Assembly (NCBI GenBank): GCA_964036665.1
Contig: OZ038527.1
Location: 1-64,000, forward strand
From: Gordius sp. MW1
Taxonomy: Eukaryota; Nematomorpha; Gordioida; Gordea; Gordiidae
Reading direction: 5' to 3'
DNA length: 64,000 bases
Shown one piece after another: positions 13,491 through 39,622 of this stretch (position 1 is the stretch's first letter; every line of letters starts with the position of its first letter). The notes beneath the pieces were generated by a model. That model ran no database searches. It had not been told where the DNA came from and saw only the letters and a program-made list of their open reading frames with translations. Made by a program: the position numbers and the translations under genes.

Positions 13491-14913
13491 TGATTAATTT
13501 TAGATTATAGGTAAATTTATAACAGATCCACTATTTTGCAACACTCTTTTAAAACCTTTTTATAAATTCTCGCCTCCTTTACCTATGCCCTTTAAAAAAT
13601 ATTTAAAAATTATTAAAAAATTTAATGATTAATTTTAGATTATAGGTAAATTTATAACAAATCCAATATTTTGCAACACTCTTTTAAAACCTTTTTATAA
13701 ATTCACGCCTCCTTTACCTATGCCCTTTAAAAAATATTTAAAAAATAATTAAAAAATTTAATGATTAATTTTAGATTATAGGTAAATTTATAACAGACCC
13801 ACTATTTTGCAACACTCATTTAAAACCTTTTTATAAATTCACGCCTCCTTTACCTATGCCCTTTAAAAAATATTTAAAAATTATTAAAAAATTTAATGAT
13901 TAATTTTAGATTATAGGTAAATATATAACAAATCCAATATTTTGCAACACTCTTTTAAAACCTTTTTATAAATTCACGCCTCCTTTACATATGCCCTTTA
14001 AAAAATATTTAAAAAATAATTAAAAAATTTAATGATTAATTTTAGATTATAGGTAAATTTATAACAAATCCAATATTTTGCAACACTCTTTTAAAACCTT
14101 TTTATAAATTCACGCCTCCTTTACCTATGCCCTTTAAAAAATATTTAAAAATTATTAAAAAATTTAATGATTAATTTTAGATTATAGGTAAATTTATAAC
14201 AAATCCAATATTTTGCAACACTCATTTAAAACCTTTTTATAAATTCACGCCTCCTTTACCTATGCCCTTTAAAAAATAATTAAAAAATAATTAAAAAATT
14301 TTAATGATTAATTTTAGATTATAGGTAAATTTATAACAGATCTACTATTTTGCAACACTCTTTTAAAACCTTTTTATAAATTCACGCCTCCTTTACCTAT
14401 GCCATTTCAAAAATATTTAAAAAATAATTAAAAAATTAAATGATTAATTTTTGATTATAGGTAAATTTATAACAAATCCAATATTTTGCAACACTCTTTT
14501 AAAACCTTTTTATAAATTCACGCCTCCTTTACCTATGCCCTTTACAAAATATTTAAAAATTAATTAAAAAATTTAATGATTTATTTTAGATTATAACAGA
14601 GCCAATATTTTGCAACACTCTTTTAAAACCTTTTTATAAATTCACGCCTCCTTTACCTATGCCCTTTAAAAAATATTTAAAAAATAATTATAAAATTTAA
14701 TTATTAATTTTTGATTATAGGTAAATATATAACAAATCCAATATTTTGCAACACTCTTTTAAAACCTTTTTATAAATTCACGCCTCCTTTACCTATGCCC
14801 TTTAAAAAATATTTAAAAATTATTAAAAAATTTAATGATTAATTTTAGATTATAGGTAAATTTATAACAGATCCACTATTTTGCAACACTCTTTTAAAAC
14901 CTTTTTATAAATT

Positions 14914-15600
14914 CACGCCCACTTTGCCCCTGCTCTTTAAAAAATAATTAAAATTTAACGATTAATTTTAAATTATAGGTAAATTTATAACAGATCCACT
15001 ATTTTGCAACACTTTTTAAAATTTTTTTATAAATTCACGCCTCCTTTACCTATGCCCTTTAAAAATATTTAAAAATAATTAAAAAATTTAATGATTAATT
15101 TTTGATTATAGGTAAATTTATAACAGATCCACTATTTTGCAACAATCTTTTAAAACCTTTTTATAAATTCACGCCCACTTTGCCCCTGCTCTTTAAAAAA
15201 TAATTAAAATTTAACGATTAATTTTAAATTATAGGTAAATTTATAACAGATCCACTATTTTGCAACACTTTTTAAATTTTTTTTATAAATTCACGCCTCC
15301 TTTACCTATGCCCTTTAAAAATATTTAAAAATAATTAAAAAATTTAATGATTAATTTTTGATTATAGGTAAATTTATAACAGATCCACTATTTTGCAACA
15401 ATCTTTTAAAACCTTTTTATAAATTCACGCCCACTTTGCCCCTGCTCTTTAAAAAATAATTAAAATTTAACGATTAATTTTAAATTATAGGTAAATTTAT
15501 AACAGATCCACTATTTTGCAACACTTTTTAAAATTTTTTTATAAATTCACGCCTCCTTTACCTATGCCCTTTAAAAATATTTAAAAATAATTAAAAAATT
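14914..15600. repeat. 256-bp dimeric higher-order repeat, copy 2
   Basis: The same dimer as at 12677 is found again, with CACGCCCACTTTGCCCCTGC at 14914, 15170 and 15426 (256-base spacing). The block lies 2,237 bases from the first copy and shares the same private variants, so the two blocks are probably products of one internal duplication. Confidence 0.9.
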
Positions 15601-18600
15601 TAATGATTAATTTTAGATTATAGGTAAATTTATAACAGATCCACTATTTTGCAACACTCTTTTAAAACCTTTTTATAAATTCTCGCCTCCTCTACCTATG
15701 CCCTTTAAAAAATATTTAAAAATTATTAAAAAATTTAATGATTAATTTTAGATTATAGGTAAATTTATAACAAATCCAATATTTTGCAACACTCTTTTAA
15801 AACCTTTTTATAAATTCACGCCTCCTTTACCTATGCCCTTTAAAAAATATTTAAAAAATAATTAAAAAATTTAATGATTAATTTTAGATTATAGGTAAAT
15901 TTATAACAAATCCACTATTTTGCAACACTCTTTTAAAACCTTTTTATAAATTCACGCACGCCTCCTTTACCTATGCCCTTTAATAAATATTTAAAAAATA
16001 ATTAAAAAATTTAATGATTAATTTTTGATTATAGGTAAATTTATAACAAATCCACTTTTTTGCAACACTCTTTTAAAATCTTTTTGAAATTACACGCCCC
16101 TTTTGCCCATGCCCTGTAAAAAATAATTAAAAAATTTAATGATTAATTTTAGATTATAGGTAAATTTATAACAGATCCACTATTTTGCAACACTCTTTTA
16201 AAACCTTTTTATAAATTCACGCCTCATTTACCTATGCCCTTTAAAAAATATTTAAAAAATAATTAAAAAATGTAATGATTAATTTTTGATTATAGGTAAA
16301 TTTATAACAGATCCACTCTTTTGCAACACTCTTTTAAAACCTTTTTATAAATTCACGCCTCCTTTACCTATGCCCTTTAAAAATGATTTAAAAAATATTT
16401 AAAAAATTTTAAAAAATAATTAAAAAATTTAATGATTAGTTTTTGATTATAGGTAAATTTATAACAAATCCACTATTTTGCAACACTCTTTTAAAATCTT
16501 TTTGAAATTTCACGCCCCTTTTGCCCATGCCCTGTAAAAAATAATTAAAAAATTCAATGATTAATTTTTGATTATAGGTAAATTTATAACAGAGCCAATA
16601 TTTTGCAACACTCTTTTAAAATTTTTTTATAAATTCACGCCTCCTTTACCTATGCCCTTTAAAAAATATTTAAAAATAATTAAAAAATTTAATGATTAAT
16701 TTTTGATTATAGGTAAATTTATAACAGATCCACTATTTTGCAACACTCTTTTAAAACCTTTTTATAAATTCACGCCTCCTTTACATATGCCCTTTAAAAA
16801 ATATTTAAAAATTATTAAAAAATTTAATGATTAATTTTAGATTATAGGTAAATTTATAACAAATCCAATATTTTGCAACACTCTTTTAAAACCTTTTTAT
16901 AAATTCACGCCTCCTTTACCTATGCCCTTTAAAAAATATTTAAAAAATAATTAAAAAATTTAATGATTAATTTTAGATTATAGGTAAATTTATAACAAAT
17001 CCACTATTTTGCAACACTATTTTAAAACCTTTTTATAAATTCACGCACGCCTCCTTTACCTATGCCCTTTAAAAATGATTTAAAAAATATTTAAAAATTT
17101 TTAAAAAATAATTAAAAAATTTAATGATTAATTTTTGATTATAGGTAAATTTATAACATATCCACTTTTTTGCAACACTCTTTTAAAATCTTTTTGAAAT
17201 TTCACGCCCCTTTTGCCCATGCCCTGTAAAAAATAATTAAAAAATTCAATGATTAATTTTTGATTATAGGTAAATTTATAACAGAGCCAATGATTTGCAA
17301 CACTCTTTTAAAACTTTTTATAAATTCACGCCTCCTTTACCTATGCCCTTTAAAAAATATTTAAAAAATAATTAAAAAATTTAATGATTAATTTTTGATT
17401 ATAGGTAAATTTACAACAAATCCACTTTTTTGCAACACTCTTTTAAAATCTTTTTGAAATTTCACGCCCCTTTTGCCCATGCCCTGTAAAAAATAATTAA
17501 AAAATTCAATGATTAATTTTTGATTATAGGTAAATTTATAACAGAGCCAATGATTTGCAACACTCTTTTAAAACTTTTTATAAATTCACGCCTCCTTTAC
17601 CTATGCCCTTTAAAAAATATTTAAAAAATAATTAAAAAATGTAATGATTAATTTTTGATTATATTTAAATTTATAACAGATCCACTATTTTGCAACACTC
17701 TTTTAAAACCTTTTTATAAATTCACAAACGCCTCCTTTACCTATGCCCTTTAAAAAATATTTAAAAAATAATTAAAAAATTTAATGATTAATTTTAGATT
17801 ATAGGTAAATTTATAACAAATCCACTATTTTGCAACACTATTTTAAAACCTTTTTATAAATTCACGCCTCCTTTACCTATGCCCTTTAAAAATGATTTAA
17901 AAAATATTTAAAAAATTTTAAAAAATAATTAAAAAATTTAATGATTAGTTTTTGATTATAGGTAAATTTATAACAAATCCACTATTTTGCAACACTCTTT
18001 TAAAATCTTTTTGAAATTTCACGCCCCTTTTGCCCATGCCCTGTAAAAAATAATTAAAAAATTCAATCATTAATTTTTGATTATAGGTAACTTTATAACA
18101 GAGCCAATATTTTGCAACACTCTTTTAAAACTTTTTTATAAATTCACGCCTCCTTTACCTATGCCCTTTAAAATATATTTAAAAAATAATTAAAAAATTT
18201 AATGATTAATTTTTGATTATAGGTAAATTTATAACAAATCCACTTTTTTGCAACACTCTTTTTAAATTTTTTTGAAATTTCACGCCCCCTTTGCCCATGC
18301 CCTGTAAAAAATAATTAAAAAATTCAATGATTAATTTTTGATTATAGGTAAATTTATAACAGAGCCAATATTTTGCAACACTCTTTTAAAACCTTTTTAT
18401 AAATTCACGCCTCCTTTACCTATGCCCTTTAAAAAATATTTAAAAATAATTAAAAAATTTAATGATTAATTTTTGATTATAGGTAAATTTATAACAGATC
18501 CACTATTTTGCAACACTCTTTTAAAACCTTTTTATAAATTCACGCCTCCTTTACCTATGCCCTTTAAAAAATATTTAAAAAATAATTAAAAAATTTAGTG

Positions 18601-21600
18601 ATTGATTTTTGATTATATGTAAATTTATAACAGATCCACTATTTTGCAACAATCTTTTAAAACCTTTTTATAAATTCACGCCTCCTTTACCTATGCCCTT
18701 TAAAAATGATTTAAAAAATATTTAAAAAATTTTAAAAAATAATTAAAAAATTTAATGATTAGTTTTTGATTATAGGTAAATTTATAACAAATCCACTATT
18801 TTGCAACACTCTTTTAAAATCTTTTTGAAATTTCACGCCCCTTTTGCCCATGCCCTGTAAAAAATAATTAAAAAACTCAATAATTAATTTTTGATTATAG
18901 GTAAATAAATTTATAACAGAGCCAATATTTTGCAACACTCTTTTAAAACCTTTTTATAAATTCACGCCTCCTTTACCTATGCCCTTTAAAAAATATTTAA
19001 AAAATAATTAAAAAATTTAATGATTAATTTTTGATTATAGGTAAATTTATAACAGATCCACTCTTTTGCAACACTCTTTTAAAACCTTTTTATAAATTCA
19101 CGCCTCCTTTACCTATGCCCTTCAAAAATGATTTAAAAAATATTTAAAAAATTTTAAAAATAATTAAAAAATTTAATGATTAGTTTTATTATAGGTAAAT
19201 TTATAACAAATCCACTATTTTGCAACACTCTTTTAAAATCTTTTTCAAATTTTACGCTCCTTTTGCCCATGCCCTGTAAAAAATAATTAAAAAATTCAAT
19301 GATTAATTTTTGATTATAGGTAAATTTATAACAGAGCCAATATTTTGCAACACTCTTTTAAAACTTTTTTATAAATTCACGCCTCCTTTACCTATGCCCT
19401 TTAAAATATATTTAAAAAATAATTAAAAAATTTAATGATTAATTTTTGATTATAGGTAAATTTATAACAAATCCACTTTTTTGCAACACTCTTTTAAAAT
19501 TTTTTTGAAATTTCACGCCCCCTTTGCCCATGCCCTGTAAAAAATAATTAAAAAATTCAATGATTAATTTTTGATTATAGGTAAATTTATAACAGATCCA
19601 CTCTTTTGCAACACTCTTTTAAAACCTTTTTATAAATTTACGCCTCCTTTACCTATGCCCTTTAAAAATGATTTAAAAAATATTTAAAAAATTTTAAAAA
19701 ATAATTAAAAAATTTAATGATTAGTTTTTGATTATAGGTAAATTTATAACAAATCCACTTTTTTGCAACACTCTTTTAAAATCTTTTTGAAATTTCACGC
19801 CCCTTTTGCCCATGCCCTGTAAAAAATAATTAAAAAATTCAATGATTAATTTTTGATTATAGGTAAATTTATAACAGAGCCAATATTTTGCAACACTCTT
19901 TTAAAACCTTTTTATAAATTCACGCCACCTTTACCTATGCCCTTTAAAAAATATTTAAAAATAATTAAAAAATTCAATGATTAATTTTTGATTATAGGTA
20001 AATTTATAACAGATCCACTATTTTGCAACACTCTTTTAAAACCTTTTTATAAATTCACGCCTCCTTTACCTATGCCCTTTAAAAAATATTTAAAAAATAA
20101 TTAAAAAATTTAGTGATTGATTTTTGATTATATGTAAATTTATAACAAATCCACTATTTTGCGCAACACTATTTTAAAACCTTTTTATAAATTCACGCAC
20201 GCCTCCTTTACCTATGCCCTTTAAAAATGATTTAAAAAATATTTAAAAAATTTTAAAAAATAATTAAAAAATTTAATGATTAATTTTTGATTATAGGTAA
20301 ATTTATAACAAATCCACTTTTTTGCAACACTCTTTTAAAATCTTTTTGAAATTTCACGCCCCTTTTGCCCATGCCCTGTAAAAAATAATTAAAAAATTCA
20401 ATGATTAATTTTTGATTATAGGTAAATTTATAACAGAGCCAATATTTTGCAACAGTCTTTTAAAACTTTTTTATAAATTCACGCCTCCTTTACATATGCC
20501 CTTTAAAAAATATTTAAAAAATAATTAAAAAATTTAATGATTAATTTTTGATTATAGGTAAATTTATAACAAATCCACTTTTTTGCAACACTCTTTTAAA
20601 ATCTTTTTGAAATTTCACGCCACTTTTGCCCATGCCCTGTAAAAAATAATTAAAAAATTTAATGATTAATTTTTGATTATAGGTAAATTTATAACAGATC
20701 CACTATTTTGCAACACTCTTTTAAAACCTTTTTATAAATTCACGCACGCCTCATTTACCTATGCCCTTTAAAAAATATTTAAAAAATAATTAAAAAATTT
20801 AATGATTAATTTTTGATTATAGGTAAATTTATAACAGATCCACTCTTTTGCAACACTCTTTTAAAACCTTTTTATAAATTCACGCCTCCTTTACCTATGC
20901 CCTTTAAAAATGATTTAAAAAATATTTAAAAAAATTTAAAAAATAATTAAAAAATTTAATGATTAGTTTTTGATTATAGGTAAATTTATAACAAATCCAC
21001 TAATTTGCAACACTCTTTTAAAATCTTTTTGAAATTTCACGCCCCTTTTGCCCATGCCCTGTAAAAAATAATTAAAAAATTCAATGATTAATTTTTGATT
21101 ATAGGTAAATTTATAACAGAGCCAATATTTTGCAACACTCTTTTAAAACCTTTTTATAAATTCACGCCTCCTTTACCTATGCCCTTTAAAAAATATTTAA
21201 AAAATAATTAAAAAATTTAGTGATTGATTTTTGATTATATGTAAATTTATAACAGATCCACTATTTTGCAACAATCTTTTAAAACCTTTTTATAAATTCA
21301 CGCCTCCTTTACCTATGCCCTTTAAAAATGATTTAAAAAATATTTAAAAAATTTTAAAAAATAATTAAAAAATTTAATGATTAGTTTTTGATTATAGGTA
21401 AATTTATAACAAATCCACTATTTTGCAACACTCTTTTAAAATCTTTTTGAAATTTCACGCCCCTTTTGCCCATGCCCTGTAAAAAATAATTAAAAAATTC
21501 AATAATTAATTTTTGATTATAGGTAAATTTATAACAGAGCCAATATTTTGCAACACTCTTTTAAAACCTTTTTATAAATTCACGCCTCCTTTACCTATGC

Positions 21601-24600
21601 CCTTTAAAAAATATTTAAAAAATAATTAAAAAATTTAATGATTAATTTTGGATTATAGGTAAATTTATAACAAATCCACTATTTTGCAACACTATTTTAA
21701 AACCTTTTTATAAATTCACGCACGCCTCCTTTACCTATGCCCTTTAAAAAATATTTAAAAAATAATTAAAAAATTTAATGATTAATTTTTGATTATAGGT
21801 AAATTTATAACAGATCCACTCTTTTGCAACACACTTTTAAAACCTTTTTATAAATTCACGCCTCCTTTACCTATGCCCTTTAAAAATGATTTAAAAAATA
21901 TTTAAAAAATTTTAAAAAATAATTAAAAAATTTAATGATTAGTTTTTGATTATAGGTAAATTTATAACAAATCCACTATTTCTCAACACTCTTTTAAAAT
22001 CTTTTTCAAATTTCACGCCCCTTTTGCCCATGCCCTGTAAAAAATAATTAAAAAATTCAATGATTAATTTTTGATTATAGGTAAATTTATAACAGAGCCA
22101 ATATTTTGCAACACTCTTTTAAAACTTTTTTATAAATTCACGCCTCCTTTACCTATGCCCTTTAAAATATATTTAAAAAATAATTAAAAAATTTAATGAT
22201 TAATTTTTGATTATAGGTAAATTTATAACAAATCCACTTTTTTGCAACACTCTTTTAAAATTTTTTTGAAATTTCACGCCCCCTTTGCCCATGCCCTGTA
22301 AAAAATAATTAAAAAATTCAATGATTAATTTTTGATTATAGGTAAATTTATAACAGAGCCAATATTTTGCAACACTCTTTTAAAACCTTTTTATAAATTC
22401 ACGCCTCCTTTACCTATGCCCTTTAAAAAAAATTTTAAAAATAATTAAAAAATTTAATGATTAATTTTTGATTATAGGTAAATTTATAACAGATCCACTA
22501 TTTTGCAACACTCTTTTAAAACCTTTTTATAAATTCACGCACGCCTCATTTACCTATGCCCTTTAAAAAATATTTAAAAAATAATTAAAAAATTTAATGA
22601 TTAATTTTTGATTATAGGTAAATTTATAACAGATCCACTCTTTTGCAACACTCTTTTAAAACCTTTTTATAAATTCACGCCTCCTTTACCTATGCCCTTT
22701 AAAAATGATTTAAAAAATATTTAAAAAATTTTAAAAAATAATTAAAAAATTTAATGATTAGTTTTTGATTATAGGTAAATTTATAACAAATCCACTATTT
22801 TGCAACACTCTTTTAAAATCTTTTTGAAATTTCACGCCCCTTTTGCCCATGCCCTGTAAAAAATAATTAAAAAATTCAATAATTAATTTTTGATTATAGG
22901 TAAATTTATAACAGAGCCAATATTTTGCAACACTCTTTTAAAACCTTTTTATAAATTCACGCCACCTTTACCTATGCCCTTTAAAAAATATTTAAAAATA
23001 ATTAAAAAATTTAATGATTAATTTTTGATTATAGGTAAATTTATAACAGATCCACTATTTTGCAACACTCTTTTAAAACCTTTTTATAAATTCACGCCTC
23101 CTTTACCTATGCCCTTTAAAAAATATTTAAAAAATAATTAAAAAATGTAATGATTAATTTTTGATTATATTTAAATTTATAACAGATCCACTATTTTGCA
23201 ACACTCTTTTAAAACCTTTTTATAAATTCACGCACGCCTCATTTACCTATGCCCTTTAAAAAATATTTAAAAAATAATTAAAAAATTTAATGATTAATTT
23301 TTGATTATAGGTAAATTTATAACAGATCCACTCTTTTGCAACACTCTTTTAAAACCTTTTTATAAATTCACGCCTCCTTTACCTATGCCCTTTAAAAATG
23401 ATTTAAAAAATATTTAAAAAAATTTAAAAAATAATTAAAAAATTTAATGATTAGTTTTTGATTATAGGTAAATTTATAACAAATCCACTAATTTGCAACA
23501 CTCTTTTAAAATCTTTTTGAAATTTCACGCCCCTTTTGCCCATGCCCTGTAAAAAATAATTAAAAAATTCAATGATTAATTTTTGATTATAGGTAAATTT
23601 ATAACAGAGCCAATATTTTGCAACACTCTTTTAAATTTTTTTTATAAATTCACGCCTCCTTTACCTATGCCCTTTAAAAAATATTTAAAAATAATTAAAA
23701 AATTAATGATTAATTTTTGATTATAGGTAAATTTATAACAGATCCACTATTTTGCAACACTCTTTTAAAACCTTTTTATAAATTCACGCCTCCTTTACCT
23801 ATGCCCTTTAAAAAATATTTAAAAAATAATTAAAAAATTTAGTGATTGATTTTTGATTATATGTAAATTTATAACAGATCCACTATTTTGCAACAATCTT
23901 TTAAAACCTTTTTATAAATTCACGCCTCCTTTACCTATGCCCTTTAAAAATGATTTAAAAAATATTTAAAAAATTTTAAAAAATAATTAAAAAATTTAAT
24001 GATTAGTTTTTGATTATAGGTAAATTTATAACAAATCCACTATTTTGCAACACTCTTTTAAAATCTTTTTGAAATTTCACGCCCCTTTTGCCCATGCCCT
24101 GTAAAAAATAATTAAAAAATTCAATAATTAATTTTTGATTATAGGTAAATTTATAACAGAGCCAATATTTTGCAACACTCTTTTAAAACCTTTTTATAAA
24201 TTCACGCCTCCTTTACCTATGCCCTTTAAAAAATATTTAAAAAATAATTAAAAAATTTAATGATTAATTTTGGATTATAGGTAAATTTATAACAAATCCA
24301 CTATTTTGCAACACTATTTTAAAACCTTTTTATAAATTCACGCACGCCTCCTTTACCTATGCCCTTTAAAAATGATTTAAAAAATATTTAAAAAATTTTA
24401 AAAAATAATTAAAAAATTTAATGATTAGTTTTTGATTATAGGTAAATTTATAACAAATCCACTATTTTGCAACACTCTTTTAAAATCTTTTTGAAATTTC
24501 ACGCCCCTTTTGCCCATGCCCTGTAAAAAATAATTAAAAAATTCAATAATTAATTTTTGATTATAGGTAAATTTATAACAGAGCCAATATTTTGCAACAC

Positions 24601-26836
24601 TCTTTTAAAACCTTTTTATAAATTCACGCCTCCTTTACCTATGCCCTTTAAAAAATATTTAAAAAATAATTAAAAAATTTAATGATTAATTTTGGATTAT
24701 AGGTAAATTTATAACAAATCCACTATTTTGCAACACTATTTTAAAACCTTTTTATAAATTCACGCACGCCTCCTTTACCTATGCCCTTTAAAAATGATTT
24801 AAAAAATATTTAAAAAATTTTAAAAAATAATTAAAAAATTTAATGATTAGTTTTTGATTATAGGTAAATTTATAACAAATCCACTAATTTGCAACACTCT
24901 TTTAAAATCTTTTTGAAATTTCACGCCCCTTTTGCCCATGCCCTGTAAAAAATAATTAAAAAATTCAATGATTAATTTTTGATTATAGGTAAATTTATAA
25001 CAGATCCACTATTTTGCAACACTCTTTTAAAACCTTTTTATAAATTCACGCCTCCTTTACCTATGCCCTTTAAAAAATATTTAAAAAATAATTAAAAAAT
25101 TTAATGATTAATTTTTGATTATAGGTAAATTTATAACAGATCTACTCTTTTGCAACACTCTTTTAAAACCTTTTTATAAATTCACGCCTCCTTTACCTAT
25201 GCCCTTTAAAAATGATTTAAAAAATATTTAAAAAATTTTAAAAAATAATTAAAAAATTTAATGATTAGTTTTTGATTATAGGTAAATTTATAACAAATCC
25301 ACTATTTTGCAACACTCTTTTAAAATCTTTTTCAAATTTCACGCCCCCTTTGCCCATGCCCTTTAAAATATATTTAAAAAATAATTAAAAAATTTAATGA
25401 TTAATTTTTGATTATAGGTAAATTTATAACAGATCCACTATTTTGCAACACTCTTTTAAAACCTTTTTATAAATTCACGCCTCCTTTACCTATGCCCTTT
25501 AAAATATATTTAAAAAATAATTAAAAAATTTAATGATTAATTTTTGATTATAGGTAAATTTATAACAAATCCACTTTTTTGCAACACTCTTTTAAAATTT
25601 TTTTGAAATTTCACGCCCCCTTTGCCCATGCCCTGTAAAAAATAATTAAAAAATTCAATGATTAATTTTTGATTATAGGTAAATTTATAACAGAGCCAAT
25701 ATTTTGCAACACTCTTTTAAAACCTTTTTATAAATTCACGCCTCCTTTACCTATGCCCTTTAAAAAAATTTTTAAAAATAATTAAAAAATTTAATGATTA
25801 ATTTTTGATTATAGGTAAATTTATAACAGATCCACTATTTTGCAACACTCTTTTAAAACCTTTTTATAAATTCACGCACGCCTCATTTACCTATGCCCTT
25901 TAAAAAATATTTAAAAAATAATTAAAAAATTTAATGATTAATTTTTGATTATAGGTAAATTTATAACAGATCCACTCTTTTGCAACACACTTTTAAAACC
26001 TTTTTATAAATTCACGCCTCCTTTACCTATGCCCTTTAAAAATGATTTAAAAAATATTTAAAAAATTTTAAAAAATAATTAAAAAATTTAATGATTAGTT
26101 TTTGATTATAGGTAAATTTATAACAAATCCACTATTTCTCAACACTCTTTTAAAATCTTTTTCAAATTTCACGCCCCTTTTGCCCATGCCCTGTAAAAAA
26201 TAATTAAAAAATTCAATGATTAATTTTTGATTATAGGTAAATTTATAACAGAGCCAATATTTTGCAACACTCTTTTAAGACTTTTTTATAAATTCACGCC
26301 TCCTTTACCTATGCCCTTTAAAATATATTTAAAAAATAATTAAAAAATTTAATGATTAATTTTTGATTATAGGTAAATTTATAACAAATCCACTTTTTTG
26401 CAACACTCTTTTAAAATTTTTTTGAAATTTCACGCCCCCTTTGCCCATGCCCTGTAAAAAATAATTAAAAAATTTAATGATTAATTTTAGATTATAGGTA
26501 AATTTATAACAAATCCACTATTTTGCAACACTATTTTAAAACCTTTTTATAAATTCACGCACGCCTCCTTTACCTATGCCCTTTAAAAATGATTTAAAAA
26601 ATATTTAAAAATTTTTAAAAAATAATTAAAAAATTTAATGATTAATTTTTGATTATAGGTAAATTTATAACAAATCCACTTTTTTGCAACACTCTTTTAA
26701 AATCTTTTTGAAATTTCACGCCCCTTTTGCCCATGCCCTGTAAAAAATAATTAAAAAATTCAATGATTAATTTTTGATTATATTTAAATTTATAACAGAG
26801 CCAATATTTTGCAACAGTCTTTTAAAACTTTTTTAT

Positions 26837-26839
<3 letters not shown>

Positions 26840-26904
<65 letters not shown>
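26840..26904. repeat. Poly(T), 65 nt
   Basis: A pure T run lies between satellite and the left inverted repeat. It is followed by GGAAAAAG. Read on the other strand, this is CTTTTTCC followed by poly(A), that is, the element's own 3' end with its tail attached to the inverted copy. The homopolymer length is probably approximate. Confidence 0.9.
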
Positions 26905-26905
<1 letters not shown>

Positions 26906-26990
26906 GAAAAAGAAGTGCTTGTTAATAAATGAAACAATAAAAATTATATGCGAGGTAAACATTCAAAAATTGCGATCGCGTTGAAATGAC
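26906..26990. repeat. Left 85-bp inverted repeat
   Basis: This is the exact reverse complement of 29293-29377, with no mismatch over 85 bases. It includes the palindromic GCGATCGC. It contains an in-frame stop (26982-26984) just before the coding frame opens at 26985, so it supplies no start codon. The base outside it (26905, G) has no match on the right. Confidence 0.95.
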
Positions 26991-29339
26991 ATCTACGAGC
27001 CACACATCCATAAGATTACATCAGTTCAACAAAGAGCCAAACGGGTTTTCTCAAAACTCAACCACTTTGACATACAGGGTGCCCTTCGCCTGGCCAATTC
27101 AGACTGCAAAATTTCCCCAGACACTCAAGAAACCTTCGAATCTTTACAAACTAAACACCCTGAAAGAAATGGCTCCCAATTTCCCCCTACAATCAACTCC
27201 CCCTTCAAGGACTTCACATCGCCCGAAATTCTCGAGGCTATCGGTTCTTTTAAAAAATCCTCAGTAGGTTCTGGTTTAGACGGCTTCCGTGCTTCACATT
27301 TAATAGAATTAACAAGACCTCACATTGACAGGTCTGGCCACTTCACATCCACCCTAGCAACCTTCCTTAACCAGGTTATTAAAGGCTTAGTACCTGACGC
27401 GATCTCTCCCTATTTTTTGGGGGCCACCTTAATATCTCTTACCAAACCTGATGGTGGCCTTCGTCCAATTGCCATGGGTTCAATTTTTAGACGCATATGC
27501 TGCAAACTTATCATTGCACGAGTAAAATCCGACATTGCAGATCAATTAGCTCCTATCCAACTAGGTTTCGGAACCAAGGGTGGTTGTGAAATCGCTTCTC
27601 ACGCTGTTCGCATAGCCCTAGCCCATCCCGACCATTCGATCCTAGCTAAGATTGACTTCAAAAACGCATTTAACACGATCTACAGGTCACACTTCTTAAC
27701 CGAGGCTTACAAATCTCTTCCCGAGTACTCCATTTTCCTTAACGCGTGCTACGCTCCTACTTCCATGCTCAACTTTAATTCCAAAATAATTGCATCGAGT
27801 GACGGCATTCAACAAGGAGACCCGCTAGGCCCCCTACTATTCTGCCTAGGTATAAAGTCCCTGACTGAAGACCTAGCCTCTAAATATAATCTATCGCTCA
27901 ACTTGTGGTACCTAGACGATGGTACCATCAAGGGAAATGCCGAAGACGTCAAAGAAGCCCTCTCATATCTAGAAGTCGAAGCTTCAAAAATTGGTCTCCA
28001 TCTAAATCATAGCAAGACCGAGGTTTGCAAAAACAATACTTACCCTTTAAGCCTAGACCCATACTTTGACGCTTTCAAACATATTCACCCTAACGAACTA
28101 ACGCACTTAGGATCTCCCGTAGGTGGCTCACACCCTTGTAATAAGTCATTAACAGAGACAATACAAAAACTAGTAGAAATCAAACCCCTCCTTTCTTACT
28201 TGCCAGCCCACCAGGCTTTCTTTTTAATTAAAAACTGCTATTCTTTACCTAAGATAAATCATATCTTCAGGTCATCCACCTCATTTTTAAATCCTAATGC
28301 TCTATCTATATTCGACCAAAAACTCAAAGGTGTAGTCGAGGAAATCACAAACCTTTCTTTTACAGGGTCCCAATGGAAACAAGCGTGTCTCCCCACAAAA
28401 TATGGTGGTTTGGGCCTGAGATCACCCCCTCTAGTAGCTTTGTCGGCCTTCATCTCGAGCCGACTTTCAGCCAAACCAATCATCGACAAAATAATCGATC
28501 AACCAGATCCCTTTACCCAAATCGCTCTCGACATGTGGAGCTCTTTGTCCGACCCTAACACTCCATTCCCTACCATAAACTCTCAAAAAAGTTGGAACAC
28601 TCCTCTCTACGATCATGCCCTTAAAACTCTTATATCGGGCGCTTCGTTGGAGGAGTTACCAGCTTTAAGAAGTTTTGCATCCAGGTCCGGCCACGAGTGG
28701 TTGGAGGCCATCCCAAGTCGGACCCATGACCTTCAACTCTCCAACAACGAGTTCAGGATCGCAACAGGGCTCCGCCTAGGTTGTGATATAGTTGCCCCCC
28801 ATCAATGCAACTTATGTGGCTCATCTGTAGATACAAAAGGTCATCACGGCCTACATTGCAAATTTAATAAGGCCAGATTTTTATGTCACACATCTGTTAA
28901 TGCTCTTCTACAGAAGACATTCAACAAGGCTGGCTTTCCCTCCCAATTGGAGCCTAATGGTCTTTGCCTTAGCGACAAGAAGAGACCCGATGGACAGACC
29001 CTCATCCCATGGGCAAAAGGGCTATGCCTAGCATGGGACTACACTTGTCCGGATGCCTTTGCACCCTCAAACCATAACAAAGACCCCCTTGTCGATTCTG
29101 AAAGAATGAAGTCAGCTAAATACGCAGAACTTAATTCCTCACTCCTTTTCTGCCCTATAGTGACCACTACCCTTACAACAATAGGGCCTAAAACCCAAGC
29201 CCTCCTGAAAGAATTGGGGCGCCGTATAGCTGCCAATACCCTTGACAAAAGGGAAACTTTTTTTTTAAAACAGAAAATCGGAATTATAATTTGTCATTTC
29301 AACGCGATCGCAATTTTTGAATGTTTACCTCGCATATAA
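26985..29339 (+). CDS. Reverse transcriptase with C-terminal CCHC and restriction-like endonuclease, N-terminally truncated
   Basis: The frame is open for 784 codons without an early ATG; the first in-frame ATG comes only after the fingers region, so the N-terminus is missing. Residues 1-50 resemble the linker seen in relatives (RAKRVFSKLNHFDIQGALR, then TKHPER). The RT follows: VGSGLDGFRASHL, PDGGLRPIAMGS, QLGFGTKGG, motif A KIDFKNAFN near 223, motif B GIQQGDPLGP near 273, and YLDD at 309. The C-terminus has a CCHC finger (C-x2-C..H..C from residue 608), RPD at 667-669 and WD at 684-685, the pattern of RLE endonucleases that nick target DNA. The last 15 codons and the stop lie inside the right inverted repeat. 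No internal stop or frameshift is visible, so the copy appears young. Clade within RLE elements is undetermined. Confidence 0.88.
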   Translation, partial: NDIYEPHIHKITSVQQRAKRVFSKLNHFDIQGALRLANSDCKISPDTQETFESLQTKHPERNGSQFPPTINSPFKDFTSPEILEAIGSFKKSSVGSGLDGFRASHLIELTRPHIDRSGHFTSTLATFLNQVIKGLVPDAISPYFLGATLISLTKPDGGLRPIAMGSIFRRICCKLIIARVKSDIADQLAPIQLGFGTKGGCEIASHAVRIALAHPDHSILAKIDFKNAFNTIYRSHFLTEAYKSLPEYSIFLNACYAPTSMLNFNSKIIASSDGIQQGDPLGPLLFCLGIKSLTEDLASKYNLSLNLWYLDDGTIKGNAEDVKEALSYLEVEASKIGLHLNHSKTEVCKNNTYPLSLDPYFDAFKHIHPNELTHLGSPVGGSHPCNKSLTETIQKLVEIKPLLSYLPAHQAFFLIKNCYSLPKINHIFRSSTSFLNPNALSIFDQKLKGVVEEITNLSFTGSQWKQACLPTKYGGLGLRSPPLVALSAFISSRLSAKPIIDKIIDQPDPFTQIALDMWSSLSDPNTPFPTINSQKSWNTPLYDHALKTLISGASLEELPALRSFASRSGHEWLEAIPSRTHDLQLSNNEFRIATGLRLGCDIVAPHQCNLCGSSVDTKGHHGLHCKFNKARFLCHTSVNALLQKTFNKAGFPSQLEPNGLCLSDKKRPDGQTLIPWAKGLCLAWDYTCPDAFAPSNHNKDPLVDSERMKSAKYAELNSSLLFCPIVTTTLTTIGPKTQALLKELGRRIAANTLDKRETFFLKQKIGIIICHFNAIAIFECLPRI

Positions 29340-29377
29340 TTTTTATTGTTTCATTTATTAACAAGCACTTCTTTTTC
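29293..29377. repeat. Right 85-bp inverted repeat, C-terminal coding end plus 3' UTR
   Basis: This matches 26906-26990 in reverse complement exactly. It encodes the final residues of the RT/RLE protein, the TAA at 29337-29339 and 38 bases of 3' untranslated sequence ending CTTCTTTTTC. Because it carries the protein end, it looks like the element's native 3' terminus, with the left copy derived from it. No poly(A) follows; satellite resumes at once. Confidence 0.95.
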
Positions 29378-32300
29378 TTTTATACATTCACGCCTCCTTT
29401 ACATATGCCCTTTAAAAAATATTTAAAAAATAATTAAAAAATTTAATGATTAATTTTTGATTATAGGTAAATTTATAACAGATCCACTCTTTTGCAACAC
29501 TCTTTTAAAACCTTTTTATAAATTCACGCCTCCTTTACCTATGCCCTTTAAAAATGATTTAAAAAATATTTAAAAAAATTTAAAAAATAATTAAAAAATT
29601 TAATGATTAGTTTTTGATTATAGGTAAATTTATAACAAATCCACTAATTTGCAACACTCTTTTAAAATCTTTTTGAAATTTCACGCCCCTTTTGCCCATG
29701 CCCTGTAAAAAATAATTAAAAAATTCAATGATTAATTTTTGATTATAGGTAAATTTATAACAGAGCCAATATTTTGCAACACTCTTTTAAAACCTTTTTA
29801 TAAATTCACGCCTCCTTTACCTATGCCCTTTAAAAAATATTTAAAAATAATTAAAAAATTTAATGATTAATTTTTGATTATAGGTAAATTTATAACAGAT
29901 CCACTATTTTGCAACACTCTTTTAAAACCTTTTTATAAATTCACGCCTCCTTTACCTATGCCCTTTAAAAAATATTTTAAAAATAATTAAAAAATTTAGT
30001 GATTGATTTTTGATTATATGTAAATTTATAACAGATCCACTATTTTGCAACAATCTTTTAAAACCTTTTTATAAATTCACGCCTTCTTTGCCCCTGCTCT
30101 TTAAAAAATAATTAAAAAATTGATTAATTTTTGATTATAGGTAAATTTATAACAAATCCAATAATTTGCAACACTCTTTTAAAACCTTTTTATAAATTCA
30201 CGCCTCCTTTACCTATGCCCTTTAAAAAATATTTAAAAAATAATTAAAAAATTTAATGATTAATTTTTGATTATAGGTAAATTTATAACAAATCCACTTT
30301 TTTGCAACACTCTTTTAAAATCTTTTTGAAATTTCACGCCCCTTTTGCCCATGCCCTGTAAAAAATAATTAAAAAATTCAATGATTAATTTTTGATTATA
30401 GGTAAATTTATAACAAAGCCAATATTTTGCAACACTCTTTTAAAACTTTTTTATAAATTCACGCCTCCTTTACCTATGCCCTTTAAAAAATATTTAAAAA
30501 TAATTAAAAAATTTAATGATTAATTTTTGATTATAGGTAAATTTATAACAGAGCCAATATTTTGCAACACTCTTTTAAAACCTTTTTATAAATTCACGCC
30601 TCCTTTACCTATGCCCTTTAAAAAATATTTAAAAATAATTAAAAAATTAATGATTAATTTTTGATTATAGGTAAATTTATAACAGATCCACTATTTTGCA
30701 ACACTCTTTTAAAACCTTTTTATAAATTCACGCCTCCTTTACCTATGCCCTTTAAAAAATATTTAAAAAATAATTAAAAAATTTAGTGATTGATTTTTGA
30801 TTATAGGTAAATTTATAACAGATCCACTATTTTGCAACAATCTTTTAAAACCTTTTTATAAATTCACGCCTCCTTTACCTATGCCCTTTAAAAATGATTT
30901 AAAAAATATTTAAAAAATTTTAAAAAATAATTAAAAAATTTAATGATTAGTTTTTGATTATAGGTAAATTTATAACAAATCCACTATTTTGCAACACTCT
31001 TTTAAAATCTTTTTGAAATTTCACGCCCCTTTTGCCCATGCCCTGTAAAAAATAATTAAAAAATTCAATAATTAATTTTTGATTATAGGTAAATTTATAA
31101 CAGAGCCAATATTTTGCAACACTCTTTTAAAACCTTTTTATAAATTCACGCCTCCTTTACCTATGCCCTTTAAAAAATATTTAAAAAATAATTAAAAAAT
31201 TTAATGATTAATTTTGGATTATAGGTAAATTTATAACAAATCCACTATTTTGCAACACTATTTTAAAACCTTTTTATAAATTCACGCACGCCTCCTTTAC
31301 CTATGCCCTTTAAAAATGATTTAAAAAATATTTAAAAAATTGTAAAAAATAATTAAAAAATTTAATGATTAGTTTTTGATTATAGGTAAATTTATAACAA
31401 ATCCAATATTTTGCAACACTCTTTTAAAATCTTTTTCAAATTTCACGCCCCTTTTGCCCATGCCCTGTAAAAAATAATTAAAAAATTCAATGATTAATTT
31501 TTGATTATAGGTAAATTTATAACAGAGCCAATATTTTGCAACAATCTTTTAAAACTTTTTTATAAATTCACGCCTCCTTTACCTATGCCCTTTAAAATAT
31601 ATTTAAAAAATAATTAAAAAATTTAATGATTAATTTTTGATTATAGGTAAATTTATAACAAATCCACTTTTTTGCAACACTCTTTTAAAATTTTTTTGAA
31701 ATTTCACGCCCCCTTTGCCCATGCCCTGTAAAAAATAATTAAAAAATTCAATGATTAATTTTTGATTATAGGTAAATTTATAACAGAGCCAATATTTTGC
31801 AACACTCTTTTAAAACCTTTTTATAAATTCACGCCTCCTTTACCTATGCCCTTTAAAAAAAATTTTAAAAATAATTAAAAAATGTAATGAGTAATTTTAT
31901 GTAAATTTATAACAGATCCACTCTTTTGCAACACTCTTTTAAAACCTTTTTATAAATTCACGCCTCCTTTACCTATGCCCTTTAAAAATGATTTAAAAAA
32001 TATTTAAAAAATTTTAAAAAATAATTAAAAAATTTAATGATTAGTTTTTGATTATAGGTAAATTTATAACAAATCCACTATTTTGCAACACTCTTTTAAA
32101 TTTTTTTTGAAATTTCACGCCCCCTTTGCCCATGCCCTGTAAAAAATAATTAAAAAATTCAATGATTAATTTTTGATTATAGGTAAATTTATAACAGAAC
32201 CAATATTTTGCAACACTCTTTTAAAACCTTTTTATAAATTCACGCCACCTTTACCTATGCCCTTTAAAAAATATTTAAAAATAATTAAAAAATTTAGTGA

Positions 32301-35300
32301 TTGATTTTTGATTATATGTAAATTTATAACAGATCCACTATTTTGCAACAATCTTTTAAAACCTTTTTATAAATTCACGCCTCCTTTACCTATGCCCTTT
32401 AAAAAATATTTAAAAATTATTAAAAAATTTAATGATTATTTTTAGATTATAGGTAAATTTATAACAAATCCAATATTTTGCAACACTCTTTTAAAACCTT
32501 TTTATAAATTCACGCCTCCTTTACCTATGCCCTTTAAAAAATATTTAAAAAATAATTAAAAAATTTAATGATTAATTTTAGATTATAGGTAAATTTATAA
32601 CAAATCCACTATTTTGCAACACTATTTTAAAACCTTTTTATAAATTCACGCACGCCTCCTTTACCTATGCCCTTTAAAAATGATTTAAAAAATATTTAAA
32701 AATTTTTAAAAAATAATTAAAAAATTTAATGATTAATTTTTGATTATAGGTAAATTTATAACAAATCCACTTTTTTGCAACACTCTTTTAAAATCTTTTT
32801 GAAATTTCACGCCCCTTTTGCCCATGCCCTGTAAAAAATAATTAAAAAATTCAATGATTAATTTTTGATTATATTTAAATTTATAACAGAGGCAATATTT
32901 TGCAACAATCTTTTAAAACTTTCTTATAAATTCACGCCTCCTTTACATATGCCCTTTAAAAAATATTTAAAAAATAATTAAAAAATTTAATGATTAATTT
33001 TTGATTATAGGTAAATTTATAACAAATCCACTTTTTTGCAACACTCTTTTAAAATCTTTTTGAAATTTCACGCCCCTTTTGCCCATGCCCTGTAAAAAAT
33101 AATTAAAAAATTTAATGATTAATTTTAGATTATAGGTAAATTTATAACAAATCCACTATTTTGCAACACTATTTTAAAACCTTTTTATAAATTCACGCAC
33201 GCCTCCTTTACCTATGCCCTTTAAAAATGATTTAAAAAATATTTAAAAATTTTTAAAAAATAATTAAAAAATTTAATGATTAATTTTTGATTATAGGTAA
33301 ATTTATAACAAATCCACTTTTTTGCAACACTCTTTTAAAATCTTTTTGAAATTTCACGCCCCTTTTGCCCATGCCCTGTAAAAAATAATTAAAAAATTTA
33401 ATGATTAATTTTTGATTATATTTAAATTTATAACAGATCCACTATTTTGCAACACTCTTTTAAAACCTTTTTATAAATTCACGCACGCCTCATTTACCTA
33501 TGCCCTTTAAAAAATATTTAAAAAATAATTAAAAAATTTAATGATTATTTTTGATTATAGGTAAATTTATAACAGATCCACTCTTTTGCAACACTCTTTT
33601 AAAACCTTTTTATAAATTCACGCCTCCTTTACCTATGCCCTTTAAAAATGATTTAAAAAATATTTAAAAAAATTTAAAAAATAATTAAAAAATTTAATGA
33701 TTAGTTTTTGATTATAGGTAAATTTATAACAAATCCACTAATTTGCAACACTCTTTTAAAATCTTTTTGAAATTTCACGCCCCTTTTGCCCATGCCCTGT
33801 AAAAAATAATTAAAAAATTCAATGATTAATTTTTGATTATAGGTAAATTTATAACAGAGCCAATATTTTGCAACACTCTTTTAAAATTTTTTTATAAATT
33901 CACGCCTCCTTTACCTATGCCCTTTAAAAAATATTTAAAAATAATTAAAAAATTTAATGATTAATTTTTGATTATAGGTAAATTTATAACAGATCCACTA
34001 TTTTGCAACACTCTTTTAAAACCTTTTTATAAATTCACGCCTCCTTTACCTATGCCCTTTAAAAAATATTTAAAAATTATTAAAAAATTTAATGATTAAT
34101 TTTAGATTATAGGTAAATATATAACAAATCCAATATTTTGCAACACTCTTTTAAAACCTTTTTATAAATTCACGCCTCCTTTACATATGCCCTTTAAAAA
34201 ATATTTAAAAAATAATTAAAAAATTTAATGATTAATTTTAGGTTATAGGTAAATTTATAACAAATCCAATATTTTGCAACACTCTTTTAAAAACTTTTTA
34301 TAAATTCACGCCTCCTTTAACTATGCCCTTTAAAAAATATTTAAAAAATAATTAAAAAATTTAATGATTAATTTTTGATTATAGGTAAATTTATAACAAA
34401 TCCAATATTTTGCAACACTCTTTTGAAACCTTTTTATAAATTCACGCCTCCTTTACCTATGCCTTTTAAAAAATATTTAAAAAATAATTAAAAAATTTAA
34501 TGATTAATTTTAGATTATAGGTAAATTTATAACAGATCCACTATTTTGCAACACTCTTTTAAAACCTTTTTATAAATTCACGCCTCCTTTACCTATGCCC
34601 TTTAAAAAATATTTAAAAAATAATTAAAAAATTTAATGATTAATTTTGAGATTATAGGTAAATTTATAACAGATCCACTATTTTGCAACACTCTTTTAAA
34701 ACCTTTTTATAAATTCACGCCTCCTTTACCTATGCCCTTTAAAAAATATTTAAAAAATAATTAAAAAATTTAATGATTAATTTTAGATTATAGGTAAATT
34801 TATAACAGATCCACTATTTTGCAACACTCTTTTAAACCTTTTTATAAATTCACGCACGCCTCCTTTATATATGCCCTTTAAAAAATATTTTAAAAATAAT
34901 TTTAAAATTTAATGATTAATTTTTGATTATAGGTAAATTTATAACAGATCCAGTATTTTGCAACACTCTTTTAAAACCTTTTTATAAATTCACGCCTCCT
35001 TTACCTATGCCCTGTAAAAAATATTTAAAAAATAATTAAAAAATTTAATGATTAATTTTAGATTATAGGTAAATTTATAACAGATCCACTATTTTGCAAC
35101 ACTCTTTTAAAACCTTTTTATAAATTCACGCCTCCTTTACCTATGCCCTTTAAAAAATATTTAAAAAATAATTAAAAAATTTAATGATTAATTTTAGATT
35201 ATAAACAGATCCACTATTTTGCAACACTCTTTTAAAAACTTTTTATAAATTCACGCCTCCTTTAACTATGCCCTTTAAAAAATATTTAAAAAATAATTAA

Positions 35301-38300
35301 AAAATTTAATGATTAATTTTTGATTATAGGTAAATTTATAACAAATCTAATATTTTGCAACACTCTTTTAAAACCTTTTTATAAATTCACGCCTCCTTTA
35401 CCTATGCCCTTTAAAAAATATTTAAAAAATAATTAAAAAATTTAATGATTAATTTTAGATTATAGGTAAATTTATAACAGATCCACTATTTTGCAACACT
35501 CTTTTAAAACCTTTTTATAAATTCACGCCTCCTTTACCTATGCCCTTTAAAAAATATTTAAAAAATAATTAAAAAATTTAATGATTAATTTTTGATTATA
35601 GGTAAATTTATAACAAATCCAATATTTTGCAACACTCTTTTAAAACCTTTTTATAAATTCACGCCTCCTTTACCTATGCCTTTTAAAAAATATTTAAAAA
35701 ATAATTAAAAAATTTAATGATTAATTTTAGATTATAAACAGATCCACTATTTTGCAACACTCTTTTAAAAACTTTTTATAAATTCACGCCTCCTTTAACT
35801 ATGCCCTTTAAAAAATATTTAAAAAATAATTAAAAAATTTAATGATTAATTTTTGATTATAGGTAAATTTATAACAAATCTAATATTTTGCAACACTCTT
35901 TTAAAACCTTTTTATAAATTCACGCCTCCTTTACCTATGCCCTTTAAAAAATATTTAAAAAATAATTAAAAAATTTAATGATTAATTTTAGATTATAGGT
36001 AAATTTATAACAGATCCACTATTTTGCAACACTCTTTTAAAAACTTTTTATAAATTCACGCCTCCTTTAACTATGCCCTTTAAAAAATATTTAAAAAATA
36101 ATTAAAAAATTTAATGATTAATTTTTGATTATAGGTAAATTTATAACAAATCCAATATTTTGCAACACTCTTTTAAAACCTTTTTATAAATTCACGCCTC
36201 CTTTACCTATGCCCTTTAAAAAATATTTAAAAAATAATTAAAAAATTCAATGATTAATTTTTATTATAGGTAAATTTATAACAAATTCAATATTTTGCAA
36301 CACTTTTTTAAAACCTTTTTATAAATTCACGCCTCCTTTACCTATGCCCTCTAAAAAATATTTAAAAAATAATTAAAAAACTTAATTATTAATTTTTGAT
36401 TATAGGTAAATATATAACAAATCCAATATTTTGCAACACTCTTTTAAAACCTTTTTATAAATTCACGCCTCCTTTACCTATGCCCTCTAAAAAATATTTA
36501 AAAAATAATTAAAAAACTTAATTAATTAATTTTTGATTATAGGTAAATATATAACAAATCCAATATTTTGCAACACTCTTTTAAAACCTTTTTATAAATT
36601 CACGCCTCCTTTACCTATGCCCTCTAAAAAATATTTAAAAAATAATTAAAAAATTTAATGATTAAATTTTGATTATAGGTAAATATATAACAAATCCAAT
36701 ATTTTGCAACACTCTTTTAAAACCTTTTATAAATTCACGCCTCCTTTACCTATGCCCTCTAAAAAATATTTAAAAAATAATTAAAAAATTTAATGATTAA
36801 ATTTTGATTATAGGTAAATATATAACAAATCCAATATTTTGCAACACTCTTTTAAAACCTTTTTATAAATTCACGTCTCCTTTACCTATGCCCTCTAAAA
36901 AATATTTAAAAAATAATTAAAAAATTTAATGATTAAATTTTGATTATAGGTAAATATATAACAAATCCAATATTTTGCAACACTCTTTTAAAACCTTTTT
37001 ATAAATTCACGCCTCCTTTACCTATGCCCTCTAAAAAATATTTAAAAAATAATTAAAAAACTTAATTATTAATTTTTGATTATAGGTAAATATATAACAA
37101 ATCCAATATTTTGCAACACTCTTTTAAAACCTTTTTATAAATTCACGCCTCCTTTACCTATGCCCTCTAAAAAATATTTAAAAAATATTTAAAAAACTTA
37201 ATTATTAATTTTTGATTATAGGTAAATATATAACAAATACAATATTTTGCAACACTCTTTTAAAACCTTTTTATAAATTCACGCCTCCTTTACCTATGCC
37301 CTCTAAAAAATATTTAAAAAATATTTAAAAAACTTAATTATTAATTTTTGATTATAGGTAAATATATAACAAATACAATATTTTGCAACACTCTTTTAAA
37401 ACCTTTTTATAAATTCACGCCTCCTTTACCTATGCCCTCTAAAAAATATTTAAAAAATATTTAAAAAAATTAATTATTAATTTTTTATTATAGGTAAATA
37501 TATAACAAATCCAATATTTTGCAACACTCTTTTAAAACCTTTTTATAAATTCACGCCTCCTTTACCTATGCCCTCTAAAAAATATTTAAAAAATATTTAA
37601 AAAACTTAATTATTAATTTTTGATTATAGGTAAATATATAACAAATACAATATTTTGCAACACTCTTTTAAAACCTTTTTATAAATTCACGCCTCCTTTA
37701 CCTATGCCCTCTAAAAAATATTTAAAAAATATTTAAAAAAATTAATTATTAATTTTTTATTATAGGTAAATATATAACAAATCCAATATTTTGCAACACT
37801 CTTTTAAAACCTTTTTATAAATTCACGCCTCCTTTACCTATGCCCTCTAAAAAATATTTAAAAAATAATTAAAAAATTTAATGATTAAATTTTGATTATA
37901 GGTAAATATATAACAAATCCAATATTTTGCAACACTCTTTTAAAACCTTTTTATAAATTCACGCCTCCTTTACCTATGCCCTCTAAAAAATATTTAAAAA
38001 ATAATTAAAAAATTTAATGATTAAATTTTGATTATAGGTAAATATATAACAAATCCAATATTTTGCAACACTCTTTTAAAACCTTTTTATAAATTCACGC
38101 CTCCTTTACCTATGCCCTCTAAAAAATATTTAAAAAATAATTAAAAAATTTAATGATTAAATTTTGATTATAGGTAAATATATAACAAATCCAATATTTT
38201 GCAACACTCTTTTAAAACCTTTTTATAAATTCACGCCTCCTTTACCTATGCCCTCTAAAAAATATTTAAAAAATATTTAAAAAAATTAATTATTAATTTT

Positions 38301-39622
38301 TGATTATAGGTAAATATATAACAAATCCAATATTTTGCAACACTCTTGTAAAACCTTTTTATAAATTCACGCCTCCTTTACCTATGCCCTCTAAAAAATA
38401 TTTAAAAAATAATTAAAAAATTTAATGATTAAATTTTGATTATAGGTAAATATATAACAAATCCAATATTTTGCACACTCTTTTAAAACCTTTTTATAAA
38501 TTCACGCCTCCTTTACCTATGCCCTCTAAAAAATATTTAAAAAATATTTAAAAAATTTAATGATTAAATTTTGATTATAGGTAAATATATAACAAATCCA
38601 ATATTTTGCAACACTCTTTTAAAACCTTTTTATAAATTCACGCCTCCTTTACCTATGCCCTCTAAAAAATATTTAAAAAATATTTAAAAAAATTAATTAT
38701 TAATTTTTGATTATAGGTAAATATATAACAAATCCAATATTTTGCAACACTCTTTTAAAACCTTTTTATAAATTCACGCCTCCTTTACCTATGCCCTTTA
38801 AAAAATATTTAAAAAACAATTAAAAAATTTAATGATTAATTTTAGATTATAGGTAAATTTATAACAGATCCTCTATTTTGCAACACTCTTTTAAAACCTT
38901 TTTATAAATTCACGCCTCCTTTACTATGCCCTTTAAAAAATATTTAAAAAATAATTAAAAAATTTAATGATTAATTTTAGATTATAGGTAAATTTATAAC
39001 AAATCCAATATTTTGCAACAATCTTTTAAAACCATTTTATAAATTCACGCCTCCTTTACATATGCCCTTTAAAAAATATTTAAAAAATAAATAAAAAATT
39101 TAATGATTAATTTTAGATTATAGGTAAATTTATAACAGAGCCAATATTTTGCAACACTCTTTTAAAACCTTTTTATAAATTCACGCCTCCTTTACCTATG
39201 CCCTCTAAAAAATAATTAAAAAATAATTAAAAAAATTAATTATTAATTTTTGATTATAGGTAAATATATAACAAATCCAATATTTTGCAACACTCTTTTA
39301 AAACCTTTTTATAAATTCACGCCTCCTTTACCTATGCCCTCTAAAAAATATTTAAAAAATATTTAAAAAAATTAATTATTAATTTTTGATTATAGGTAAA
39401 TATATAACAAATCCAATATTTTGCAACACTCTTTTAAAACCTTTTTATAAATTCACCCCTCCTTTACCTATGCCCTCTAAAAAATATTTAAAAATAATTA
39501 AAAAATTTAATGATAAATTTTTGATTATAGGTAAATTTAAAACAGATCCACTATTTTGCAACACTCTTTTAAAACCTTTTTATAAATTCACGCCTCCTTT
39601 ACCTATGCCCTTTAAAAAATAT
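29378..39622. repeat. Subtelomeric 136-bp satellite, proximal block
   Basis: About 10.2 kb, roughly 75 monomers, continue the array in the same orientation and phase. Up to about 34 kb the mixed classes seen distally persist. From 34 to 36.2 kb the monomers are mostly 136-bp type 1, with a 533-bp tandem duplication marked by a truncated leader (TTATAAACAGATCC at 35199 and 35732). The array ends mid-monomer after CCCTTTAAAAAATAT near 39622, against a miniature transposon piece. Confidence 0.95.
36240..39520. repeat. Homogeneous proximal satellite subfamily
   Basis: Most monomers here share TATGCCCTCTAAAAAATATT (CTCT in place of CTTT) and the leader GGTAAATATATAACAAATCC, with a steady period near 136 bp. 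They alternate mainly in whether the A/T block reads AATAATTAAAAAATTTAATG or AATATTTAAAAAAATTAATT. A few ordinary type 1 monomers interrupt at 38.8-39.2 kb. The uniformity contrasts with the mixed distal array and suggests a later local amplification. Confidence 0.88.

Follow-up and report, generated by a model that had tools for sequence, protein, structure and literature searches.

Results

The window, a stretch of 64,000 nucleotides from Gordius sp. MW1 (assembly GCA_964036665.1, contig OZ038527.1, positions 1 to 64,000 of the forward strand), opens with about 1,145 copies of CCCTAA at 8-6871, a telomere with the TTAGGG repeat, a type that would not be expected of most insects, and from this repeat at the window start C1 seems to have been assembled to its end. 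A 136-bp satellite array comes next (11649..39622, period about 136 bp), and farther along lie a second tandem repeat family at 48583-49962 and 56577-58199, with a period of about 165 bp and a 331-bp higher order, and a 69-bp tandem repeat of 8.7 copies at 50700-51297, which may be coding because its period is a multiple of three. The satellite array is the target of the insertion described here, a copy of a non-LTR retrotransposon with two arms of opposite orientation.

On its left side this copy begins with 65 T (26840..26904) and then a single additional G at 26905, and we read the run as the poly(A) tail of a short cDNA lying in antisense (minus strand). The short arm itself (26905..26990, minus strand) is an antisense copy of the RNA 3' end, in which 85 nt are the same as in the right arm and the additional base 26905 precedes the poly(A). 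At 26990..26991 it is joined head to head, with a microhomology of 1 nt (A) between the two cDNAs, to a long arm on the plus strand (26991..29377), which is a 5'-truncated sense copy of the element without poly(A). The segment 26906-26990 is the exact reverse complement of 29293-29377, forming an 85-bp inverted repeat that reaches 86 when the A at 26991, common to both arms, is counted; 200 mononucleotide shuffles of 26840-29400 yielded longest exact inverted repeats of 12 bases on average and 20 at most. Inspection of the sequence after 29377 revealed no poly(A) on the right arm.

The long arm begins at position 734 of a 3,123-nt element reference, itself a composite of two copies, and carries the C-terminal 784 codons of an ORF (26985..29339, plus strand) with a reverse transcriptase, a CCHC motif and, by motif only, a putative PD-(D/E)XK endonuclease. 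The first two codons of this frame fall within the opposite arm, and the right repeat encodes the end of the protein together with its stop codon. The arm closes with a 3' tail of 30 nt (29348..29377, plus strand), which recurs exactly only in the left arm and at C6:4063955-4063984. The first-pass annotation had already described the exact 85-bp repeat, the 65 T on the left, a sense 3' end free of poly(A) and a right repeat encoding the C-terminus and stop, and all of this was confirmed in the sequence.

Flanking the copy are TTTTATAAATT on the left (26831..26841), whose final two T overlap the poly(T), and TTTTATACATT on the right (29378..29388), identical at 10/11 positions with a longest exact run of 7. 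These figures fit the earlier description of satellite flanks with a probable duplication of 7-10 nt. The mismatch lies in the right copy, and since TATACATTCACGCC occurs once and TATAAATTCACGCC 134 times in the window, a later base change in that copy is likely. In a tandem array such as this target, the duplication is weaker evidence than the duplications at other loci.

In the genome (211.8 Mb, 12 contigs), a 22-base piece of the element's 3' end gave 424 matches with at most 2 mismatches, and a reversed control of the same piece gave 0 matches. Long copies extend 5' of 26991, showing that the window copy is 5'-truncated, and the family comprises two subfamilies, A (about 3.1 kb) and B (about 3.0 kb), which are about 94% alike. 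One subfamily A copy has a 945-codon ORF in which Pfam gives the single domain RVT_1 (E 1e-19) and no APE endonuclease was detected, so that, judged on this one copy, the element has a single ORF without that enzyme. The best solved-structure matches of its reverse transcriptase are R2 proteins (E 9e-7 and 1.3e-6), which together with the Pfam result places it among non-LTR reverse transcriptases, nearest to R2.

The C-terminus of the protein holds the sequences CNLCGSSVDTKGHHGLHC and KRPDG...WDYT (RPD...D), which we take to fit a CCHC finger and an RLE endonuclease. The earlier label of RLE element is plausible on these motifs; searches of the C-terminal part against profiles and the PDB returned no endonuclease match, and a structure predicted from the single sequence had a mean pLDDT of 35, too low to use. 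The element would thus be an R2-like non-LTR retrotransposon (LINE), with RLE assigned by motif only. Its insertion targets are diverse, comprising satellites and many unrelated sequences, and it does not show the 28S rDNA specificity of R2 proper.

Among one-ended or unread copies, a run of at least 6 A lies near the 3' end in 56/68 and is absent in 12/68, and given these 12 a sense arm without poly(A) is not special. Three further observations concern the family at large. In the B reference the frame is split into two overlapping frames, leaving that B copy without one intact ORF. The subfamily B copies (L021-L029, L036, L041, L055, L061) have near-identical bodies but differ in the short 3' tail that precedes the poly(A), of which there are several kinds that could be tags of their source copies. 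At L007 an unrelated segment of about 35 nt stands in place of the A tail and is followed by a 55-nt poly(A), likely another 3' transduction or template switch.

Sampling by 3'-end pattern yielded 53 distinct elements (27 in L033-L060 and 26 in L065-L090). The 5' junction was out of reach in 19 of them and readable in 34, two of these being read in L004 and L010. The inverted end was absent in 27/34 readable copies, and seven, about a fifth, were two-ended (L038, L050/51, L052, L056, L066, L075 and L080); six of the seven carry an antisense 3' end and one (L052) a bare poly(T), joined head to head to the sense copy. Other two-ended copies were obtained outside this sample, with element arms in the window, L030, L061 and L063/64 and with bare poly(T) in L017 and L022; L061 and L063/64 had been chosen on a hint of two-ended structure and were kept out of the rate. 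In total, 10 of the two-ended copies have element arms and 3 (L017, L022, L052) have only a poly(T), and because arm lengths and flanks differ in each they represent separate events.

These counts bear on two proposals of the first-pass annotation. A lineage with native terminal inverted repeats is contradicted, and was rejected, because the inverted end is missing in most readable copies and, where it is present, the arms vary in length. A one-off joining event likewise failed, since seven of the 34 readable copies are two-ended, each with different arms. The annotation had further held that finding the inverted end on many copies would favour native repeats; that rule did not survive either, as inverted ends that recur with arm lengths varying from copy to copy are the mark of a recurrent mechanism.

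At L020 (C3:20236113-20239600), head-to-head element arms are separated by 494 bp of non-element sequence, all inside a short AT-rich duplication. The insert is perhaps filler from template jumping, and on account of these 494 bp of foreign sequence between the arms the locus was excluded from every two-ended count.

We then compared the two arms of the 10 element-armed copies. Both can be read directly at these loci, and they overlap in all ten, by 85 nt in the window and by 5 to 271 nt in the others; microhomology at the inner junctions is 0-3 nt where readable, and the right arm of L080 has 18 nt of element followed by an unmatched tail. The arms are reciprocally staggered in seven copies (window, L030, L050/51, L056, L063/64, L066, L080), and in three (L038, L061, L075) one is nested inside the other apart from poly(A) length. 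This distinction is decisive for snap-back, the alternative originally offered for the window copy, in which the 3' end of a single cDNA folds back, copies itself in part and then joins the upstream target. Such a product is described for R2 proteins in human cells in the consulted sections of PMC11371274, and L038, L061, L075 and the poly(T)-only copies are compatible with it. Snap-back demands, however, that the second arm be contained in the first cDNA, whereas in the window the short arm alone has A65 and the C and the long arm alone has 2.3 kb, so that each arm holds RNA sequence absent from the other. Because a folded-back cDNA cannot make staggered arms, two separate primings on RNA are needed in all seven staggered copies, and we rejected snap-back for the window and the six others; for the window copy it is contradicted unless the 65 T were untemplated. 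As a general account we regard it as very improbable, although the three nested and three poly(T)-only copies, taken alone, could have come from snap-back or untemplated T addition.

The distance from the second priming site to the poly(A) was short in all ten copies, at 0, 0, 1, 37, 41, about 50, 59, 61, 76 and 86-103 nt, where the zeros (L061 and L075, in which both arms reach the poly(A)) were set by eye and the values for L066 and L080 depend on the end of the duplication and of the unmatched tail, respectively. LINE-1 elements are said to produce comparable structures by twin priming (5' inversion), as reportedly set out by Ostertag and Kazazian in 2001. The window copy might accordingly be an extreme case of the classic LINE-1-like reaction, with one cDNA primed from the poly(A) and the other from one of many scattered internal sites on the same RNA. 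The topology is the same and the frequency is similar, 7/34 here against the 18-22% given for human L1 inversions in the consulted parts of PMC12016303; in addition, L1 copies with a 5' inversion likewise retain normal duplications, and those of 5'-truncated copies are often short or altered, according to the portion of PMC2912911 consulted. The priming sites argue against this reading, for none of the ten lies more than about 100 nt from the poly(A), whereas the same parts of PMC12016303 describe human L1 inversion breakpoints spread along the 3' part of L1. Overlap tells the same way: the arms overlap in 10/10 copies here, but in only 42% of germline and 15% of somatic human L1 inversions, with a median of 12 nt (PMC12016303, same parts). 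Moreover, among the 34 readable pattern-sampled copies none has an inverted segment from farther upstream in the element. We therefore consider scattered internal priming an improbable account, if the most credible of the rivals to priming at the RNA 3' end.

To score target-site duplications, we applied one script to all copies and counted an exact duplication of at least 9 nt only when it touched both outer junctions. Such a duplication was present in 10/13 two-ended and 1/47 one-ended copies (Fisher p = 4e-8), and mismatched flank pairs reached 9 nt in 0.3% of 3,540 cases. Run on sampled copies, the survey of copy ends and duplications proposed in the first-pass annotation found the inverted end in a minority of copies and the duplication chiefly with it. 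The length was exactly 12 nt, the commonest value, in 6/10 scored two-ended copies. Three two-ended copies were missed by the script: L022 has a 12-nt duplication outside the rule, the window has its 10/11 match and L056 has none; conversely, the same rule left uncounted a 12-nt duplication that lies four bases from the 5' end of one-ended L005. L020, L014 (which seemingly holds another insertion), L087 and L089 were left out. In L066 and L080 the duplication had guided the placing of the outer boundaries, and it had in part served to identify the three poly(T)-only copies, but when these five were removed the duplication still occurred in 6/8 two-ended copies, among them L030, whose flanks are tandem repeats.

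With 424 3'-end sites at up to 2 mismatches, the family is abundant, which would favour two independent or nested insertions coming to lie head to head by chance. We analysed pairs by coordinates only, using the 177 sites listed of 194 counted by three patterns, a subset of the 424, and found 5 head-to-head, 0 tail-to-tail and 1 tandem pair within 3 kb, whereas random placement gave an average of 0.11 head-to-head pairs and a maximum of 2 in 2,000 draws. Both arms carry the same sequence variant in all five head-to-head pairs, two of which (C7, C8) are known from coordinates and not from read structure. Pair orientation, together with outer flanks that form one duplication in 10/13 copies, led us to reject random juxtaposition, and the window tail, common to both arms and, by search with a 20-nt piece, on no other element copy, points the same way; chance is hence a highly unlikely source of these structures. 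Inverted duplications are also a known long-read artefact. A fold-back error of assembly or sequencing makes neither 12-bp target duplications at unrelated sites nor arms of differing content, however, and we give this explanation the least credence of all.

The tail also informs on the RNA that was copied. The right arm carries 30 nt of it and the left arm one C more, and the site at C6 (L062) matches the left-arm tail exactly over 31 nt, with no element alongside in the assembly. A 20-nt piece of the tail gave no exact genome match beyond the two arms and C6, and two sites at 2 mismatches. In the left arm the poly(A) starts after the C that is also present at C6, as if the RNA had been polyadenylated there. 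Since the tail is common to both arms, both cDNAs probably derive from a single chimeric RNA or from RNAs with a common source, which might be, for example, a copy at C6 that is absent from the assembly; L062 is possibly the empty site of such a missing source copy. Common tails in L001, L061 and L075 lean towards one RNA or one source, a reading to be weighed with the fact that copies with two long arms may have escaped sampling. At L062, GTTTCATTTA matches the element's own tail, and a priming microhomology is possible there.

Discussion

Our results support the proposal, made from the window alone, that both sides of the target primed reverse transcription and that the cDNAs were joined head to head; the structure of the window copy and the recurrent examples elsewhere in the genome both argue for it. 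We conclude, with a probability of roughly 0.84, that an R2-like non-LTR retrotransposon integrated here through two-ended target-primed reverse transcription (TPRT), anchored at the 3' end of the RNA. The window copy is composed as a twin-primed insertion is, with opposite cDNA arms between one target duplication (imperfect, 10/11, in the window) and a poly(A)-primed cDNA arm, the 65 T standing outside the left arm, and the best explanation for it is a 3'-anchored variant of LINE-1 twin priming.

As we envisage the order of events, the target would have been cut with a stagger that, to judge from the duplications, left 3' overhangs of about 12 nt. The left 3' end of the target would have paired with the poly(A) tail, copying 65 A and the last 86 nt of the RNA, and the right one would have paired where tail and poly(A) meet, copying 2.39 kb, after which the 3' ends of both cDNAs would have been joined through a 1-nt microhomology. 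With different arm lengths, this reaction is also the best account of the 9 further element-armed copies and probably of the 3 with bare poly(T). In this scheme the second polymerase would sit at the 3' end of the RNA, in its last ~100 nt, rather than priming at scattered internal sites.

A bolder form of the two-ended model, which we put forward tentatively and think less likely to be right than wrong, is that symmetric insertion is the regular mode: a dimer would break the target to leave ~12-nt 3' overhangs, each loaded on its own RNA 3' end, and a second TPRT would replace second-strand synthesis. Were this true, ordinary 5'-truncated copies without duplications would be those in which the second end was not captured.

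Compared with LINE-1 twin priming as presented in the consulted parts of the sources above, two-ended insertion here likewise involves two cDNAs from two target ends, joined at their 3' ends with poly(A) on one arm, a normal duplication and a similar frequency. It differs in that the second cDNA, too, starts at the 3' end of the RNA, no farther than about 100 nt from the poly(A), which is why the arms overlap as an inverted repeat in 10 copies; in that either arm can be the longer; and in that no APE endonuclease was detected in the element, whose nearest relatives of solved structure are R2 proteins.

The likeness to R2, as far as the sections of PMC6895275 and PMC11371274 at hand describe it, lies in a reverse transcriptase closest to R2 among solved structures, a single ORF in the translated copy, target-primed reverse transcription and possibly, on motifs, a C-terminal CCHC with a putative RLE. 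According to the same sections, R2Bm has one 28S insertion site and is believed to synthesise its second strand on the cDNA (PMC6895275, PMC11371274), whereas the element studied here has diverse targets, common poly(A) tails and frequent second-end priming on RNA. Antisense junctions in cell assays of R2 proteins were interpreted there as snap-back (PMC11371274), and R2 biochemistry, again in the sections consulted, raised a possible relation of L1 twin priming to second-strand synthesis and left one subunit versus two as an open question (PMC6895275). The double TPRT model for 5' attachment, in the portion of PMC2912911 consulted, has in common with our model its name and the second target end as primer, but there the second end primes on cDNA and here on RNA. 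In the literature searched, from which the bulk of subscription papers and preprints is absent, we found twin priming described for no RLE element.

What RLE-type LINEs do with the second end of the target is unsettled. In this family about a fifth of readable insertions record both the fate of that end and its priming site, making the question testable from sequence. For R2-based transgene insertion, some antisense junctions that have been read as snap-back could instead be products of second-end priming.
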